From a virus: a stretch of DNA of 26,574 bases. Location: positions 1 through 26,574 of the IMG/VR virus record IMGVR_UViG_3300031688_000112. One strand, 5' to 3'. The notes beneath the pieces are model-generated. The model did not search any database, had not been told where the DNA came from, and saw only the letters and a list, made by a program, of their open reading frames with translations. The position numbers and the translations under genes are program-made. Positions 12,446-21,280 of the stretch are shown piece by piece (the stretch's first letter is position 1; each line of letters starts with the position of its first letter).

Positions 12446-12892
12446 TCATACAGTGGACGGTTCAAACCAAAGAACTACAAAAAATATAAAGGAGACCCAA
12501 CAAGAATCTTTTACAGGTCGCTTTGGGAGAGACGATTCATGGTATATTGCGATGTTAGCGCCGCTATATTAGAATGGGGAAGCGAGGAAGTAATCATACC
12601 TTACAAGTCTCCCCTTGATAATAGAGTGCATAGATACTTTCCAGACTTCTACATTAAGTATAAGAATAGAGAAGGTAAGATAATTCGTGAGATTATTGAA
12701 GTGAAACCTAAGAAGTATCTTTCGCCACCGAAAGAACCTAAAAGAAAAACCAAACGATACCTAACAGAAGTATCTAATTACGCAGTCAATCAATCCAAAT
12801 TCAAGGCGGCCGAAGAGTTTTGTGCTGAAAGAAAGCTTGCGTTCAGAATATTAACAGAAGACCACTTAGTTCCTAAGAAGGCAAAAAAATGA
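12443..12892 (+). CDS. 4: Head completion nuclease gp4 (T4 gp4/gp50)
   Basis: This 149-aa protein is equal in length to T4 gp4 (about 150 aa) and has the same plan: SGRFKPKNYKKYKGD, YRSLWERRFMVYCD, ILEWGSEEVIIPYKSPLD, HRYFPDFYI, IIEVKPKKY. D68 in YFPDF and E86-x-K88 in IIEVKPK form a PD-(D/E)XK-type nuclease centre like TnsA and Holliday-junction resolvases, with E29 in the N-terminal helix. In T4, gp4 is needed to finish DNA-filled heads before tail joining. It is first in the plus-strand operon. The lysine-rich C-terminus overlaps the HAD gene start by 4 nt. Confidence 0.9.
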   Translation: MSYSGRFKPKNYKKYKGDPTRIFYRSLWERRFMVYCDVSAAILEWGSEEVIIPYKSPLDNRVHRYFPDFYIKYKNREGKIIREIIEVKPKKYLSPPKEPKRKTKRYLTEVSNYAVNQSKFKAAEEFCAERKLAFRILTEDHLVPKKAKK

Positions 12893-13485
12893 AACAACTA
12901 TATATGTTTGACCTCGATGGTGTACTCATCGACTCAAAAGAGAACATGCGTATGTCTTGGACATCATGCAAAGCAGAACATAACTTAGAACAAGAATTTG
13001 AAGAATACTTTAAACATGTCGGCAAACCGTTTAAGGTCATACTAAAAGAAATCGGTATCATGACAAATCATGATGCTATCAAAAAGACTTATGACAATGC
13101 ATCATTAAGTCACATTGATGATGTCACTATATACCAAGGCGTAAAGGAAACATTAACTTCACTCAAAGAAGACGGATTCAAAATCGCAGTTGTCACCTCA
13201 AAGGATGCAAATAGAACCCAAGAGATGATAAAAGACTTACCTGAATTCGATTATGTTGTAAGTCCAAAATCAGGACTAAGAGGTAAACCCAATCCAGACC
13301 AACTCTTATTCTGCATGGCGATGTGCAATGTTGACCCTTGCGACACATATTACATTGGTGATATGCAAACTGATTATGATGCAGCCCAAAGAGCAGGCAT
13401 CAAATTTATACATGTTAATTATGGATACGGAAAAGTAAAATGCGAAGTCTCAATCAGTCACATAGAACAACTCATACTACCGTAG
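12889..13485 (+). CDS. HAD-family phosphatase (C1-cap type)
   Basis: This 198-aa protein has all four HAD motifs: D8-L-D10-G-V (nucleophile and acid/base), T103-S, K133 in GKPNPD, and G157-D158 with D162. Residues about 16-75 form a small helical cap as in phosphoglycolate-phosphatase-like enzymes, unlike the capless KDO-8-phosphate phosphatase KdsC. The substrate is therefore unknown. Its place directly before a CMP-KDO synthetase, with a 46-nt overlap, suggests a sugar-phosphate substrate in the same pathway, but this is inference. It overlaps gp4 by 4 nt. Two Cys-rich spots (CMAMCNVDPC) at 142-151 are unusual but not clearly metal-binding. Confidence 0.85.
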   Translation: MKQLYMFDLDGVLIDSKENMRMSWTSCKAEHNLEQEFEEYFKHVGKPFKVILKEIGIMTNHDAIKKTYDNASLSHIDDVTIYQGVKETLTSLKEDGFKIAVVTSKDANRTQEMIKDLPEFDYVVSPKSGLRGKPNPDQLLFCMAMCNVDPCDTYYIGDMQTDYDAAQRAGIKFIHVNYGYGKVKCEVSISHIEQLILP

Positions 13486-14174
13486 GTTTAATACCTGCAA
13501 GATGGCACTCAAGTAGATTCGCTGGTAAACCTCTAGCAGAGATAGATGGTGTGCCTATGATTAAACGAGTCTATGACCAGGCAATGAAATGCAAAAACTT
13601 AGACACTGTTGTGGTACTTACAGATGACATGAGAATATATTCTTACTGCCAGGGGTTGACAATGCCTGTGGAAATGATAGTAAACCCAGACCTCAAGACA
13701 GGTACAGATAGGTGTGCCGAAGCAATAAAGTTTCTAGAAGGAAGAGTCTTTGTCAACATACAAGGAGACGAACCTCTTATCAATCCAGATGCGATTGACA
13801 CACTCATAGAGAATCATAATGACGGTGTATCGAATGCATATGTCGATATATACGATGACTACAAACTGCATGATAAGAATGTGGTGAAGGTTGCAATAGG
13901 GACACCACAACTTCTTAAGACTTATGCATTACACTATTCAAGATTACCAATATCAAATAAACAACAACTAGGTTTGTATGTATTCGATAGAGACATGTTA
14001 GAAATGTTTCCTAATTTGACTGTAGGTGAGAATGAAAAATCAGAATCAGTAGAGATGTTGAGATATCTAGAAAACGGATTAAGAGTTAGAATGACCAAAG
14101 TGAAAGATGACGGTCTTTCAGTAGACACAATAGAAGACCTGAAAAGAGTCGAGGAGTATATACAGAATGTTTGA
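13440..14174 (+). CDS. kdsB: CMP-KDO synthetase (3-deoxy-manno-octulosonate cytidylyltransferase)
   Basis: This 244-aa protein is about the size of bacterial KdsB (248 aa). Conserved features in order: LIPARWHSSRFAGKPL (CTP-binding loop, residues 17-32), TGTDRCAEAI (87-96), VNIQGDEPLI with D110, KNVVKVAI, LHYSRLPI, QLGLYVFDRD, ESVEMLRYLENG and SVDTIEDLKRVE with D229. Both metal-binding aspartates are intact. The enzyme activates KDO with CTP for lipopolysaccharide core synthesis. The ATG at 13440 adds 14 residues before the family start and gives an unusually long overlap (46 nt) with the HAD gene, with only a weak GGA upstream. No other ATG or GTG lies closer to the core. A related CMP-sugar synthetase is less likely. 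Confidence 0.88.
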   Translation: MRSLNQSHRTTHTTVGLIPARWHSSRFAGKPLAEIDGVPMIKRVYDQAMKCKNLDTVVVLTDDMRIYSYCQGLTMPVEMIVNPDLKTGTDRCAEAIKFLEGRVFVNIQGDEPLINPDAIDTLIENHNDGVSNAYVDIYDDYKLHDKNVVKVAIGTPQLLKTYALHYSRLPISNKQQLGLYVFDRDMLEMFPNLTVGENEKSESVEMLRYLENGLRVRMTKVKDDGLSVDTIEDLKRVEEYIQNV

Positions 14175-17684: not shown

Positions 17685-19772
17685 ATGAGTGCAAGATTAC
17701 CCAACCCACATGCAGGTACAGAAACCCATTTAAAAGGTCAAGCTATAACCTTAAGGGAAGCACTCGTTCATCAAGAAGAAACTAGTATCTTTCAAAGAAA
17801 CACCGATGTAAACACGTTCAAGGGCCAAATAGAATCTAAGGGTGGTCTCAAGAAGATATCTGACTCTCTTCTCAAAGATGTTTCCGGCGGAGGTAGTCTA
17901 CAAGGAGTTCAAAAGTCCATAGATGATGAGAAAAAAGATGAGACAGCAGAGACCAAGAAACAGGGTAGTGGTCTTAGAAGAGCTTTTGATACTTTCATCG
18001 AACCCTTTGATAAATTAAGAAAGACTCAAGGTGCCTTGATAAACTTTAACAAGTTTGATGTGGGTTTAGAACAAGGTGCTGAAAGATTTAATTCTGGTAT
18101 GAAAGAACTGACAAATGGTGTTGGTTCCTTAGGTCCAGTTATAAATGCTTTTAAAACAGGTCTATTCAAAGCTCAGGCCGTATTCAATGTAATGATTGGT
18201 ACTGTCCAAATGTTGGGCGCTGGTCTCATAAGAATGAGAAAGTTACCAGGAGTATTAATGGATGGGTTTAAAAAACTTATGCCTATAATCGAGGGCAGAA
18301 AGGATTTAGTCCTGGATTCCAAATATGACGAAGCTGTCGATGCCGCCAAAGCAGAACAGAAAACTGCCGATGATAAGAGAGCAAACATAGAAGCGATATG
18401 GGTAAAACTTCATCCGATTTCAATGGGTGAAATTACTGATGCGATTATTAATGGCGGTGACGCTCAAAGTCTTGGCGATTCTACATTTCAGCATAGTGCA
18501 GAATTGCAAAAACAAAAATCAGATATCTTGGACGAACAAGTAGCAGCTCAGCGAAAGGTTTTTAAAGCGCAAAAGGAACGCACAGGTGCTCAAACTGCCC
18601 TTCAAAAGAAAAGTGATAATCGTTTCTGGAGTAAAAGAAGTGTCGCAAACAACAAGGCTGAGTTAAGGGCGAAAGTGTCTTTTGCGAAAAACTCGGCAAT
18701 CGGAATGAAAAACTCATTGATAGAGAGAAAGGATAATGCTAAGAAATATGTCTTTGAGAAAGCACAATATGGTAAACAAAAACTATTTGAGAAAGTACAA
18801 ACACTAAAGAAATCTGCATTTGAAAAAGGACTAATGATAAAGAATGCAATGTTAAGGGGCCTAATCATGTTGGCACCCTTTATTGCTGTTGGGGCTGCAC
18901 TTGCCTTAACATGGAAAGCAATCGAAGATGGCGCTGTTGCTGCCTTGGCCAGAGCGGCTACATTGATGACTGACAAAGTAACATCAATCTTTCGAGGTCT
19001 TAGAAATGGTCTACATAAATTATTCCCTAAACTGATTGGACCTGCAAAGGTAACCAGCACAGCAAAAACCACAAAGCCCCTTACAAGCGAAACACCAGAT
19101 AAAAAACCAAACGCAAAACCAAAATTAACTCCCGGCAAGATTGGTGGTCAATTACTTAAGAGAATACCAGGTCTAGGTGCCGTTGCCGAAAGTGGTATGG
19201 ATGCGTATCAACAAGACAAGAAGATGGACCTCATAACAGATGCTTTCGAGAAGAAGGCCAATGTCATAGAAGGCGAAGACGGTAACTTAAGACCAATGAC
19301 TAAAGAAGAATACGAAATGGCAGTTAAAGCCAACAGAGCTAATATGACTGGTTCAGTTGGTAAAGGTGCAGGTGGTTTTGGTGGCGCCTTGGCTGGTGGA
19401 GCTGCCGGTGCAGCCATTGGTTCTGTTATACCTGTAGTCGGCACACTAATCGGTGGAATTGTTGGTAGTCTTATTGGTGGTCTATGGGGTAGTAAAAAGG
19501 GTGACGAAGTAGCTACAAATATTGCAGCTGACATGCAAGGCATTGAAGACCCTCAAGCAATGATTGATAGTTTAGCTACGAATGCCGAAGCGGCTAATTC
19601 TGGAGATACTATGTCGAATCTTCAAAGTGAAACATCTGACCTTAAGGTCGCATCAAGTGGTGGTGGTTCTGTAACAACTAATGTTTCTAATGTCAACAAC
19701 TCATCATCTAGTGAATCGGTTTCATATGTTCCAGATGGTGGGCAAGATAACAACTTCGCCTACTCCACTTAA
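17685..19772 (+). CDS. Tape measure / tail-length protein (gp29 position)
   Basis: This 695-aa protein starts at ATG 17685 (MSARLPNPHAG), with AAGGA upstream. A start 21 codons earlier would overlap the membrane-protein gene by 44 nt and lacks support. It is Lys/Ala/Gln-rich and mostly helical, as expected of tape measures, with a hydrophobic stretch near 394-415 (LAPFIAVGAALALTW). A long glycine-zipper segment lies at about 556-609 (GGALAGGAAGAAIGSV, then GTLIGGIVGSLIGGLWG). Such segments are thought to insert into the host membrane when DNA enters. The C-terminus is Ser/Asn/Gly-rich. It is the last gene of the plus-strand tail operon after gp26, as gene 29 follows hub genes in T4. Direct similarity to gp29 was not established. 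Confidence 0.75.
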   Translation: MSARLPNPHAGTETHLKGQAITLREALVHQEETSIFQRNTDVNTFKGQIESKGGLKKISDSLLKDVSGGGSLQGVQKSIDDEKKDETAETKKQGSGLRRAFDTFIEPFDKLRKTQGALINFNKFDVGLEQGAERFNSGMKELTNGVGSLGPVINAFKTGLFKAQAVFNVMIGTVQMLGAGLIRMRKLPGVLMDGFKKLMPIIEGRKDLVLDSKYDEAVDAAKAEQKTADDKRANIEAIWVKLHPISMGEITDAIINGGDAQSLGDSTFQHSAELQKQKSDILDEQVAAQRKVFKAQKERTGAQTALQKKSDNRFWSKRSVANNKAELRAKVSFAKNSAIGMKNSLIERKDNAKKYVFEKAQYGKQKLFEKVQTLKKSAFEKGLMIKNAMLRGLIMLAPFIAVGAALALTWKAIEDGAVAALARAATLMTDKVTSIFRGLRNGLHKLFPKLIGPAKVTSTAKTTKPLTSETPDKKPNAKPKLTPGKIGGQLLKRIPGLGAVAESGMDAYQQDKKMDLITDAFEKKANVIEGEDGNLRPMTKEEYEMAVKANRANMTGSVGKGAGGFGGALAGGAAGAAIGSVIPVVGTLIGGIVGSLIGGLWGSKKGDEVATNIAADMQGIEDPQAMIDSLATNAEAANSGDTMSNLQSETSDLKVASSGGGSVTTNVSNVNNSSSSESVSYVPDGGQDNNFAYST

Positions 19773-19966
19773 TCTTTATACTTTTCTTTTCTAGGAATAA
19801 CTTTCGTTTTATCTGAATGCATCTGAGTAGATGCGTGTGAGGGTGTCTCTTTACGAGCTTTGACTTCTGGTTTCTTTTTGCCGAATGCAAGTTCCCATCC
19901 GTCAGCATAGGCTTTATCGTTTGCGTTCCTTCTTTCGGAACCTTTGCCACCATGCCATTGTTTCAT
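19769..19966 (-). CDS. Small basic phage protein (WHGGKGS type)
   Basis: This 65-aa protein starts [20 protein letters not shown] and continues ADGWELAFGKKK. Small proteins with WHGGKGS-RR...W--IFGKK are common in marine T4-like phages and have no known function. The high Lys/Arg/His content suggests binding to nucleic acid. The start overlaps the bS21 stop by one base (TAATG), so it is probably co-translated with bS21. At its end, its TAA and the TAA of the oppositely directed tape-measure gene share the same TTAA (19769-19772), leaving no room for a terminator between the convergent operons. Confidence 0.75.
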   Translation of the reverse strand: MKQWHGGKGSERRNANDKAYADGWELAFGKKKPEVKARKETPSHASTQMHSDKTKVIPRKEKYKD

Positions 19967-20202
19967 TATCTTCTTTTTCTTATTGGGTTCTGTAGAGCTC
20001 TTTTAGCGTTTAACTTCTTCTGTCTCTTTAAATCTTGATTCTTTTGATTCTTAGTATCGTTTGGTTTCTCATAGTACTGTCGTTGTCTTACCTCTGGTAC
20101 TATCTCTGCCTTATCACATGCACGTTTAAATCTCCGCAACAGACTATCAAACGATTCCGTTTGTCTCGTTTTAGGATTTAATTTTGGTGTTACATTTGGC
20201 AT
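19966..20202 (-). CDS. rpsU: Phage-encoded ribosomal protein bS21
   Basis: This 78-aa protein (bacterial bS21 is about 70 aa) shows the family core [20 protein letters not shown] (residues 18-37) and YYEKP (43-47), followed by a basic tail ([11 protein letters not shown]). bS21 sits on the 30S platform near the anti-Shine-Dalgarno end of 16S rRNA and affects initiation. Phage copies are known from pelagiphages and are thought to replace or supplement the host protein. It has ten extra N-terminal residues ([10 protein letters not shown]). It lies downstream of gp32, after a 181-nt non-coding region with strong hairpins, and has a weak AAGAGA site before its ATG. The assignment is firm. Confidence 0.92.
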
Positions 20203-20216
20203 ATTATATTTCTCTT

Positions 20217-20340
20217 AAAAAGTGTACAGTCGCCCCAACGCTTACAGCAACCCGCTCTGTACCGATTATCCCGCTTTTGCTGATAACCTTTCCCCTACTT
20301 CGATGCCCCCATATCCACGGCCGAAGTTTGTAGTTGCATT
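20217..20340 (-). ncRNA. Candidate structured RNA or leader between gp32 and bS21
   Basis: The 181-nt gap 20203-20383 has no gene. By hand count about half of 20222-20337 is G+C, against a clearly AT-rich setting. On the minus strand three hairpins follow each other. C: ACTTCG/CGAAGT (20322-20327 with 20297-20302), extended by GCC/GGC. B: GGTTATC/GATAATC (20282-20288 with 20264-20270) with one G-U pair and an inner GC-AAAA-GC. A: GTACAG/CTGTAC (20257-20262 with 20224-20229), then AC and five U. The 5' GCAAC (20333-20337) can pair with GTTGC (20247-20251) in loop A as a pseudoknot. It may be a cis-regulatory leader of bS21, an attenuator or a separate small RNA. It matches no family I recognise. 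Confidence 0.55.
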
Positions 20341-20383
20341 CAAAAAACACATAATATATTACAACTACACCCTACTAAGAAAA

Positions 20384-20398
20384 TTAGCTATCAGCTAA
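20384..20398 (-). terminator. Triloop hairpin at the gp32 stop codon, possible weak terminator
   Basis: TTAGCT-GAT-AGCTAA forms a perfect 6-bp stem that includes the gp32 TAA and is followed by UUUUC. The stem is AU-rich and the U-run short, so it is a weak intrinsic terminator at best. It may instead protect the gp32 mRNA 3' end. Confidence 0.4.
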
Positions 20399-21280
20399 CT
20401 TCTTAAAGTAATCCATCGCATCATCTTCATCTCCTTCGGATGTAGATTCTACTGATGAGATTACAGGTTCTTCTGCTACTGTTTCAGTATTAACTCCAGA
20501 CCATGGCACTTCTTCCATGTCGTCTGCAATTGATTCAGCAGTAGAATTTGCTACAGCACCTGCAAGACCAAGAACTCTGTCGAGTTTCTCTTTAAGTTCT
20601 TCATAGGACTTAAACTTACTAGGTGATATAATCTCCGAAAGACTCTTTGTAGACATAGCGATGTTTTCTAATCTCGCCTCATCTTCAAATAGATTCGCTG
20701 ATGCATCGAACTCAGATTTGTCATAGTTCCAGTAGCCGTCTACTTTTCTAATCTTAATCTTAAAGTTTGCACCTTCGCCTCTTAAGTCAAAAGGATTAAT
20801 AGCAGACTCATCTTCAAATGCTGGAGAGATAGCCTCTTTCAACATTTCAAAAATCTTCTTACCATATCGGTACTGAAATACCTTCCCTTCATTATCAGGA
20901 TTCTTGGGGTCTGAAACTACAAAGATGTTAGAAACATAGTGAAGCCTTCGCTTCTGTTTTCTAGCCATTTCTTTGTTGGCTTCAATTCCTGTGTTCCACA
21001 ACGATGTGTTGTATTCACTTACAGGGTCTTTTTTACCAATGGTAGTCAAAGACTTTTCGATATACCAACCACCTGGACCTTGGAAACCATGGTCGAAGTA
21101 AGATACCCATGGCATCTCATCTCCTTGTGGAGTTGGTAAGAAACGAACTACTGCATAACCGTTACCACTCTTATCGAGTTCGGGTTTCCAGAAAGTATCG
21201 TCTCCGTAGGTTTTTTTATCACCTTGTGCTGGTGATGCAGACTCCATAGCCTGTCTGAGCTTATCTAACGATGTTGACAT
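20384..21280 (-). CDS. 32: Single-stranded DNA-binding protein gp32
   Basis: This 298-aa protein (T4 gp32 is 301 aa) has the full domain plan: a basic N-terminal cooperativity region with LDKLRQAM, an OB-fold core (FWKPELDKSGNGYAVVRFLP, WVSYFDHGFQGPGGWYIEKS, NFKIKIRKVDGYWNYDKSEF), and an acidic C-terminus (EGDEDDAMDYFKKLADS) that in T4 binds gp59 and other partners. The zinc site is changed. H64 is kept, but the usual Cys-Pro-Val-Cys is DPVS (85-88) and the whole protein has no cysteine. GGAG lies 7 nt before the ATG. The gene follows gp59 with one gene inserted, and a strong hairpin lies 37-64 nt upstream. Confidence 0.95.
   Translation of the reverse strand: MSTSLDKLRQAMESASPAQGDKKTYGDDTFWKPELDKSGNGYAVVRFLPTPQGDEMPWVSYFDHGFQGPGGWYIEKSLTTIGKKDPVSEYNTSLWNTGIEANKEMARKQKRRLHYVSNIFVVSDPKNPDNEGKVFQYRYGKKIFEMLKEAISPAFEDESAINPFDLRGEGANFKIKIRKVDGYWNYDKSEFDASANLFEDEARLENIAMSTKSLSEIISPSKFKSYEELKEKLDRVLGLAGAVANSTAESIADDMEEVPWSGVNTETVAEEPVISSVESTSEGDEDDAMDYFKKLADS

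Follow-up and report, generated by a model that had tools for sequence, protein, structure and literature searches.

A structured noncoding RNA family located 3′ of gp32 in uncultivated marine T4-like phages

The gp32-bS21 intergenic region

The window analysed here is a stretch of 26,574 nt covering IMG/VR virus record IMGVR_UViG_3300031688_000112. On its minus strand it carries the gene of a gp32 single-stranded DNA-binding protein followed by a phage bS21 gene (Table 1). The gap between them measures 181 nt (20203-20383), and a first-pass annotation, made from the letters alone, had placed a possible new structured RNA in a G+C-rich island of this gap. Both the gap and the island are real: positions 20217-20340 reach 50.0% G+C against 36.9% for the whole window, and only 0.6% of 124-nt windows are as high. 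Three hairpins had been noticed there, which correspond to P2, P3 and P4 of the present description, and the U5 tract that had been reported is also present. The limits assigned to the element were, however, too narrow, P1 reaching 20369 and P0 about 20404. Folding energy by itself was equivocal, with z of −3.43 for the 181-nt gap and −0.76 for the 129-nt island. Hence the case for a structured RNA was built on comparison of relatives.

The bS21 of the window shows the pattern FDxxLRRFKRxCxKA, which it has in common with a bacterial S21 chain, the best match in the PDB. The small gene after it (19769-19966, minus strand) has relatives (MTKQWHGGKGSKQRP..., MGKGSKRRP...) that directly follow the RNA in clade B. 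In another part of the window, among phage structural genes, positions 12889-14174 (plus strand) encode a HAD hydrolase and then a cytidylyltransferase (Pfam CTP_transf_3, E 1.9e-31), a pair that resembles sugar-activation genes, e.g. for KDO.

Table 1. Features of the gp32-bS21 region in the window, with the evidence for each
Feature	Position	Strand	Evidence
gp32 single-stranded DNA-binding protein gene	20384..21280	-	Pfam gp32, E 1e-37; constant 5′ neighbour of the RNA
P0 hairpin over the last gp32 codons and stop codon (AAGAAGTTAGCT GAT AGCTAATTTTCTT)	20377..20404	-	fold z and codon-UTR covariation
Structured noncoding RNA, P1-P4, 146 nt	20224..20369	-	match to model R1 (built with the window sequence included), 137.5 bits, E 1.8e-35; covariation in alignment A2
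P1 hairpin, AUG-containing loop (AUGUGUCC in many relatives)	20329..20369	-	double changes in 9/9 pairs, 94.8% of cells paired (alignment A3, fitted to the structure)
P2 hairpin, conserved GUGG / GGGG internal loop	20297..20327	-	95.5% of cells paired, double changes in 6/9 pairs (A2)
J2/3 purine-rich linker, AGGGGAAA (GAGGAAAG in clade A)	20289..20296	-	GG-AA near-invariant in all clades (alignment A4)
P3 hairpin, conserved GCGG loop (AGC...GCGG)	20264..20288	-	98.2% of cells paired, double changes in 6/7 pairs (A2)
P4 helix, GCGGG and GGGGC motifs	20224..20262	-	99.6% of cells paired, double changes in 6/8 pairs (A2)
U5 tract 3′ of P4, terminator-like	20217..20221	-	T6-T7 in several lineages whose bS21 has its own promoter
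Phage bS21 gene	19966..20202	-	Pfam Ribosomal_S21, E 2.7e-13; 3′ neighbour here, not a constant partner of the RNA

Comparison of relatives reveals a conserved fold

A search of IMG/VR with bS21 gave 54 loci, most of them with a clearly related element upstream, and a DNA pattern derived from P4 alone matched at least 119 contigs. In an alignment of 32 diverse relatives made by sequence alone (A2), 86.8% of the cells of P1-P4 were paired and changes on both sides were observed in 27 of 33 pairs. Covariation reached 0.50, compared with 0.17 for shuffled and 0.06-0.15 for slid controls; P1 was under-counted in this alignment owing to misalignment. The value rose to 0.70 for 73 members aligned to the model, an alignment which leans to the structure. 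Aligning the gap from relatives, the check proposed with the first-pass annotation, thus turned up compensatory changes in most pairs, and the structured RNA placed in the gap is borne out: on this comparative covariation evidence, 20224-20369 of the minus strand is a real structured RNA with a conserved fold. The choice of strand, already made in the annotation, is supported by the many G-U pairs, which would become A-C if read on the other strand; P3 columns 101-131, for instance, contain 19 GU, 11 AU and 2 GC.

We considered whether the element could be a small protein-coding gene. The AUG in the P1 loop is invariant among aligned window-clade members, and in the window it opens a frame of about 28 codons. 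However, 55-85 of 92 sequences contain stops, depending on the frame considered, and relatives differ by 1-2 nt indels that break the frame, which argues that the RNA is not protein-coding. With the compensatory base pairs added, a coding gene is scarcely credible. A short peptide starting at the P1 AUG was likewise rejected, as no conserved frame was found.

P0, the hairpin at the end of gp32, showed a mean folding z of −4.8 among 74 distinct P0 regions. The third base of the P0 Lys codon and the matching 3′ UTR base were G:C in 14 cases, G:T in 8, A:T in 28 and A:C in a single one. An earlier and narrower test of P0, with the stop codon outside the 3′ arm, gave little signal and was replaced by this test including the stop codon.

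Two pairings between distant portions of the RNA were rejected. The pseudoknot suggested by the first-pass annotation, GCAAC (20333-20337) with GTTGC (20247-20251), conflicts with P1, since GCAAC is the P1 3′ strand and already paired with the P1 5′ strand; moreover, GCAAC varies in relatives with no matching change in the P4 loop, hence no covariation. Pairing of the P3 loop with the P4 loop (CAGCAA and UUGCUG in the window) is lost in relatives carrying GGGGUC or CGUGA loops.

Association with gp32 and relation to bS21

Two pattern scans blind to gp32 yielded 184 matches, 175 of them directly 3′ of gp32. The remaining ones comprise four at contig edges and five chance matches in GC-rich DNA, the latter unmatched by R2, a second model derived from sister clades alone. 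Of 46 gp32 loci (L175-L220), model R1 detects the RNA in 45, and the missing one stops within gp32. Each of six records matched by R1 contains a single copy, as do two sister contigs according to R2. No R2 match was obtained in the records of HTVC008M, Mosig, S-T4, S-H68, metaG-MbCM1 and two single-cell marine viruses. Among 17 pattern matches in bacterial genomes, L255 alone passes the model; it appears to be a phage contig that was binned with a Sphingobacteriales MAG. By its distribution the RNA follows gp32 and not bS21.

The first-pass annotation had envisaged a leader of the bS21 gene, either for autoregulation by the ribosomal protein or as a riboswitch. Within the window clade the gene order would fit, bS21 following the RNA directly or one gene on in nearly all gp32 loci with enough downstream sequence. 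In addition, bS21 can bind structured noncoding RNA, being a component of the OLE RNA complex (PMC12054373). The other clades contradict this reading for the family. Clades A and B have bS21 on the other side of gp32, at a distance of about 1.4 kb upstream, with about 1.35 kb measured for clade A. The gene next to the RNA is a small same-strand gene in clade B, whereas in clades A and C it is on the opposite strand (convergent), ending 2-30 nt after P4 in 18/19 loci checked. The RNA of clade A is thus not in the 5′ UTR of bS21, as a ribosomal protein leader would be across the family, and it has no adjoining same-strand gene downstream for which it could serve as a cis aptamer.

Even in the window clade, bS21 is often not the next gene: many loci have a DNA methylase gene (Pfam N6_N4_Mtase, E 1.2e-22) in its place, with bS21 only after it. 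In ten sequences of this clade the RNA is separated from bS21 by a sigma70-like promoter (TATAAT, 18-nt spacer), so that bS21 mRNA could start after the RNA. The RNA contains no CCUCC-type anti-SD mimic, and when aligned locally with 16S and 23S rRNA of E. coli it scored no better than shuffled sequences, in a test that addresses mimicry of sequence and not of structure. Taken with the late-promoter box that precedes the RNA of sister clades (see below), these results make a bS21 leader very improbable, and the alternative offered by the same annotation, a separate small RNA, appears to be the better reading of the comparisons.

The ten sequences with a bS21 promoter are L217, L044, L072, L157, L200, L215, L059, L160, L170 and L090. 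Only about 6-8 nt separate the end of their TATAAT from the bS21 ATG, and their bS21 mRNA may be nearly leaderless. An example of the DNA N6/N4 methylase (MKSEYYKNILPW...) is found at L035:2106-2999.

Sister clades carry a divergent RNA and a late-promoter box

More distant gp32 loci (about 56-61% identity), missed by R1, carry a divergent form of the RNA. R2, which was built from these clades (alignment A5; covariation 0.37 versus 0.20 shuffled), matches window-clade members at the exact place, with a best E of 3.3e-4 and an E of 0.017 for the window. Matches to individual window-clade members are weak; over 236 kb, R2 gave 19 matches, every one of them at the element. R1 in turn matches clade C contig G007 (E 1.3e-4). 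P1 and P2 diverge strongly between clades and the common core consists mainly of J2/3-P3-P4. Invariant or nearly so across clades are GG-AA in J2/3, one G in the P3 loop, and GCGGG and GGGGC in P4.

The T4 late-promoter consensus reads TATAAATA. We observed this sequence between the gp32 stop and the RNA in 37/37 distinct sister-clade gaps, for an expectation of 0.65 by first-order resampling. It was not found in the gap of the window, nor in that of the window clade. In L372 and L375 the order is box, RNA, bS21. Late promoters of T4 consist of an 8-bp TATA box that precedes the start by about one helical turn; cyanophage S-PM2 and other members of the T4 family are reported to have similar consensus sequences (PMC2988020). 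As the window has no such box, the RNA there must stem from gp32 read-through or from another promoter. Inverted repeats flank the box in sister-clade gaps, e.g. in L357, L340 and L314 (AGTTTTAGTC...GACTAAAACT). They are possibly the counterpart of P0, which is suggestive but weak (mean z −1.2).

The box bears directly on the main rival explanation, in which P0-P4 form a cis-acting 3′ UTR of gp32 mRNA that would stabilise the messenger, end transcription or give gp32 feedback. The RNA is always directly 3′ of gp32, P0 spans the gp32 stop codon, with covariation between the two, and the window-clade gap is devoid of the box, all of which are consistent with such a role. T4 offers a parallel, its gp32 binding its own mRNA and an RNase E site lying near the gene 32 stop codon (PMC3014915). 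The autoregulation as known works, however, at the 5′ end of gene 32 mRNA, via a pseudoknot (PMC3014915). Also, the conserved unpaired motifs exceed the needs of a stability hairpin, and a late promoter between gp32 and the RNA in all sister-clade gaps would yield the RNA without gp32. We therefore consider a cis-acting 3′ UTR unlikely.

Another reading limits the element to terminating or attenuating transcription between gp32 and the downstream genes. The U tract after P4, extended to T6-T7 in several lineages whose bS21 has its own promoter, points in this direction. In many members, however, the tract is weak or interrupted, as in ACCTAATT or ACTATTT, so that a G+C-rich hairpin followed by a U run, as expected of an intrinsic terminator, is not shared by all of them. 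Termination alone would moreover leave P1-P3, the invariant unpaired motifs and the preceding late promoter without a purpose, and we hold this explanation to be highly improbable.

Proposed origin and role of the RNA

The reading that we favour, and consider probable, is a new noncoding RNA family of about 130-200 nt, located 3′ of gp32 in uncultivated marine T4-like phages, which would arise as an independent late transcript in sister clades and through read-through in the window clade, and would act in trans. In sister clades it would be transcribed late, as its own transcript, from the TATAAATA box. In the window clade it would derive from gp32 read-through transcripts, be cut from gp32 near P0 and end at P4 and the U tract. 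We infer promoter, ends and processing from sequence comparison. The RNA is predicted to act late in infection and in trans, not by cis control of bS21, and would most likely be the RNA part of a ribonucleoprotein recognising the invariant G-rich loops (GGNAA, GCGG, GCGGG...GGGGC). Some points weigh against this proposal: the window-clade RNA could be only part of the gp32-bS21 mRNA, TATAAATA being absent there; the unvarying association with gp32 may point to a cis role on its mRNA; and the clades share mainly J2/3-P3-P4, with weak R2 matches to single window-clade members.

More speculatively, a large set of marine T4-like phages might produce, late in infection, a ribonucleoprotein or regulatory machine with this RNA as its core, and the G-rich loops of the RNA would bind a host or phage factor, e.g. 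the ribosome or gp32. We regard this extension as doubtful, yet with a real chance of being correct; if true, it would represent a new class of functional phage RNA. The four conserved G tracts possibly form a quadruplex.

The family is well supported. Hundreds of contigs from uncultivated marine phages contain it, and it was not found in the cultivated phages examined. It enlarges the short list of phage noncoding RNAs and marks a conserved, probably late, gp32-tied function in abundant ocean viruses. It also calls for caution: an RNA that precedes a ribosomal-protein gene in a phage is not necessarily the leader of that gene. With the family models and the promoter box, direct testing in metatranscriptomes becomes possible.

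Comparison with known RNAs

The first-pass annotation had recognised no known family. Accordingly, Rfam gave no match in the window at the gathering score, and permissive Rfam scans of the window and two sister loci returned chance-level matches only. No significant match was obtained by blastn against 50,697 phage records of cultivated phages, and no earlier description of the RNA was found in the literature searched. By sequence comparison it thus constitutes a new phage family of structured noncoding RNA, the general kind being already known.

Marine T4-like phages (cyanophages) and metagenomes are the source of other structured RNAs, manA, wcaG and PhotoRC-II (PMC2864571), which share this origin with the RNA described here. 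Rfam has a family for each of the three, and none of these families matches our RNA. manA and wcaG are in potential 5′ UTRs of metabolic genes, unlike the present RNA.

GOLLD and ROOL are, like OLE, stand-alone structured noncoding RNAs, a type whose functions are either unknown or a recent finding. The RNA 3′ of gp32 resembles this type in its conserved fold with invariant unpaired nucleotides, which sets them apart from typical cis leaders. OLE works as a ribonucleoprotein including bS21 (PMC12054373). Compared with OLE, GOLLD and ROOL, the present RNA is much shorter (about 150 nt), has no match in Rfam 15, and in the present searches occurs solely beside gp32 of T4-like marine phages.

Phage and bacterial sRNAs can arise from or beside mRNA 3′ ends. 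Similarly, our RNA is sited at the 3′ end of a protein gene, with a terminator-like 3′ helix and, in sister clades, an internal promoter box. It differs from these sRNAs in what is conserved, namely a fold and G-rich motifs and not one single-stranded base-pairing seed. Finally, the control elements of T4 gene 32 are comparable as structured RNA tied to this gene, with possible processing near the stop codon (PMC3014915). The RNA described here is distinguished from them by its position 3′ of the gene, its unrelated fold and, in sister clades, a late-promoter box of its own.
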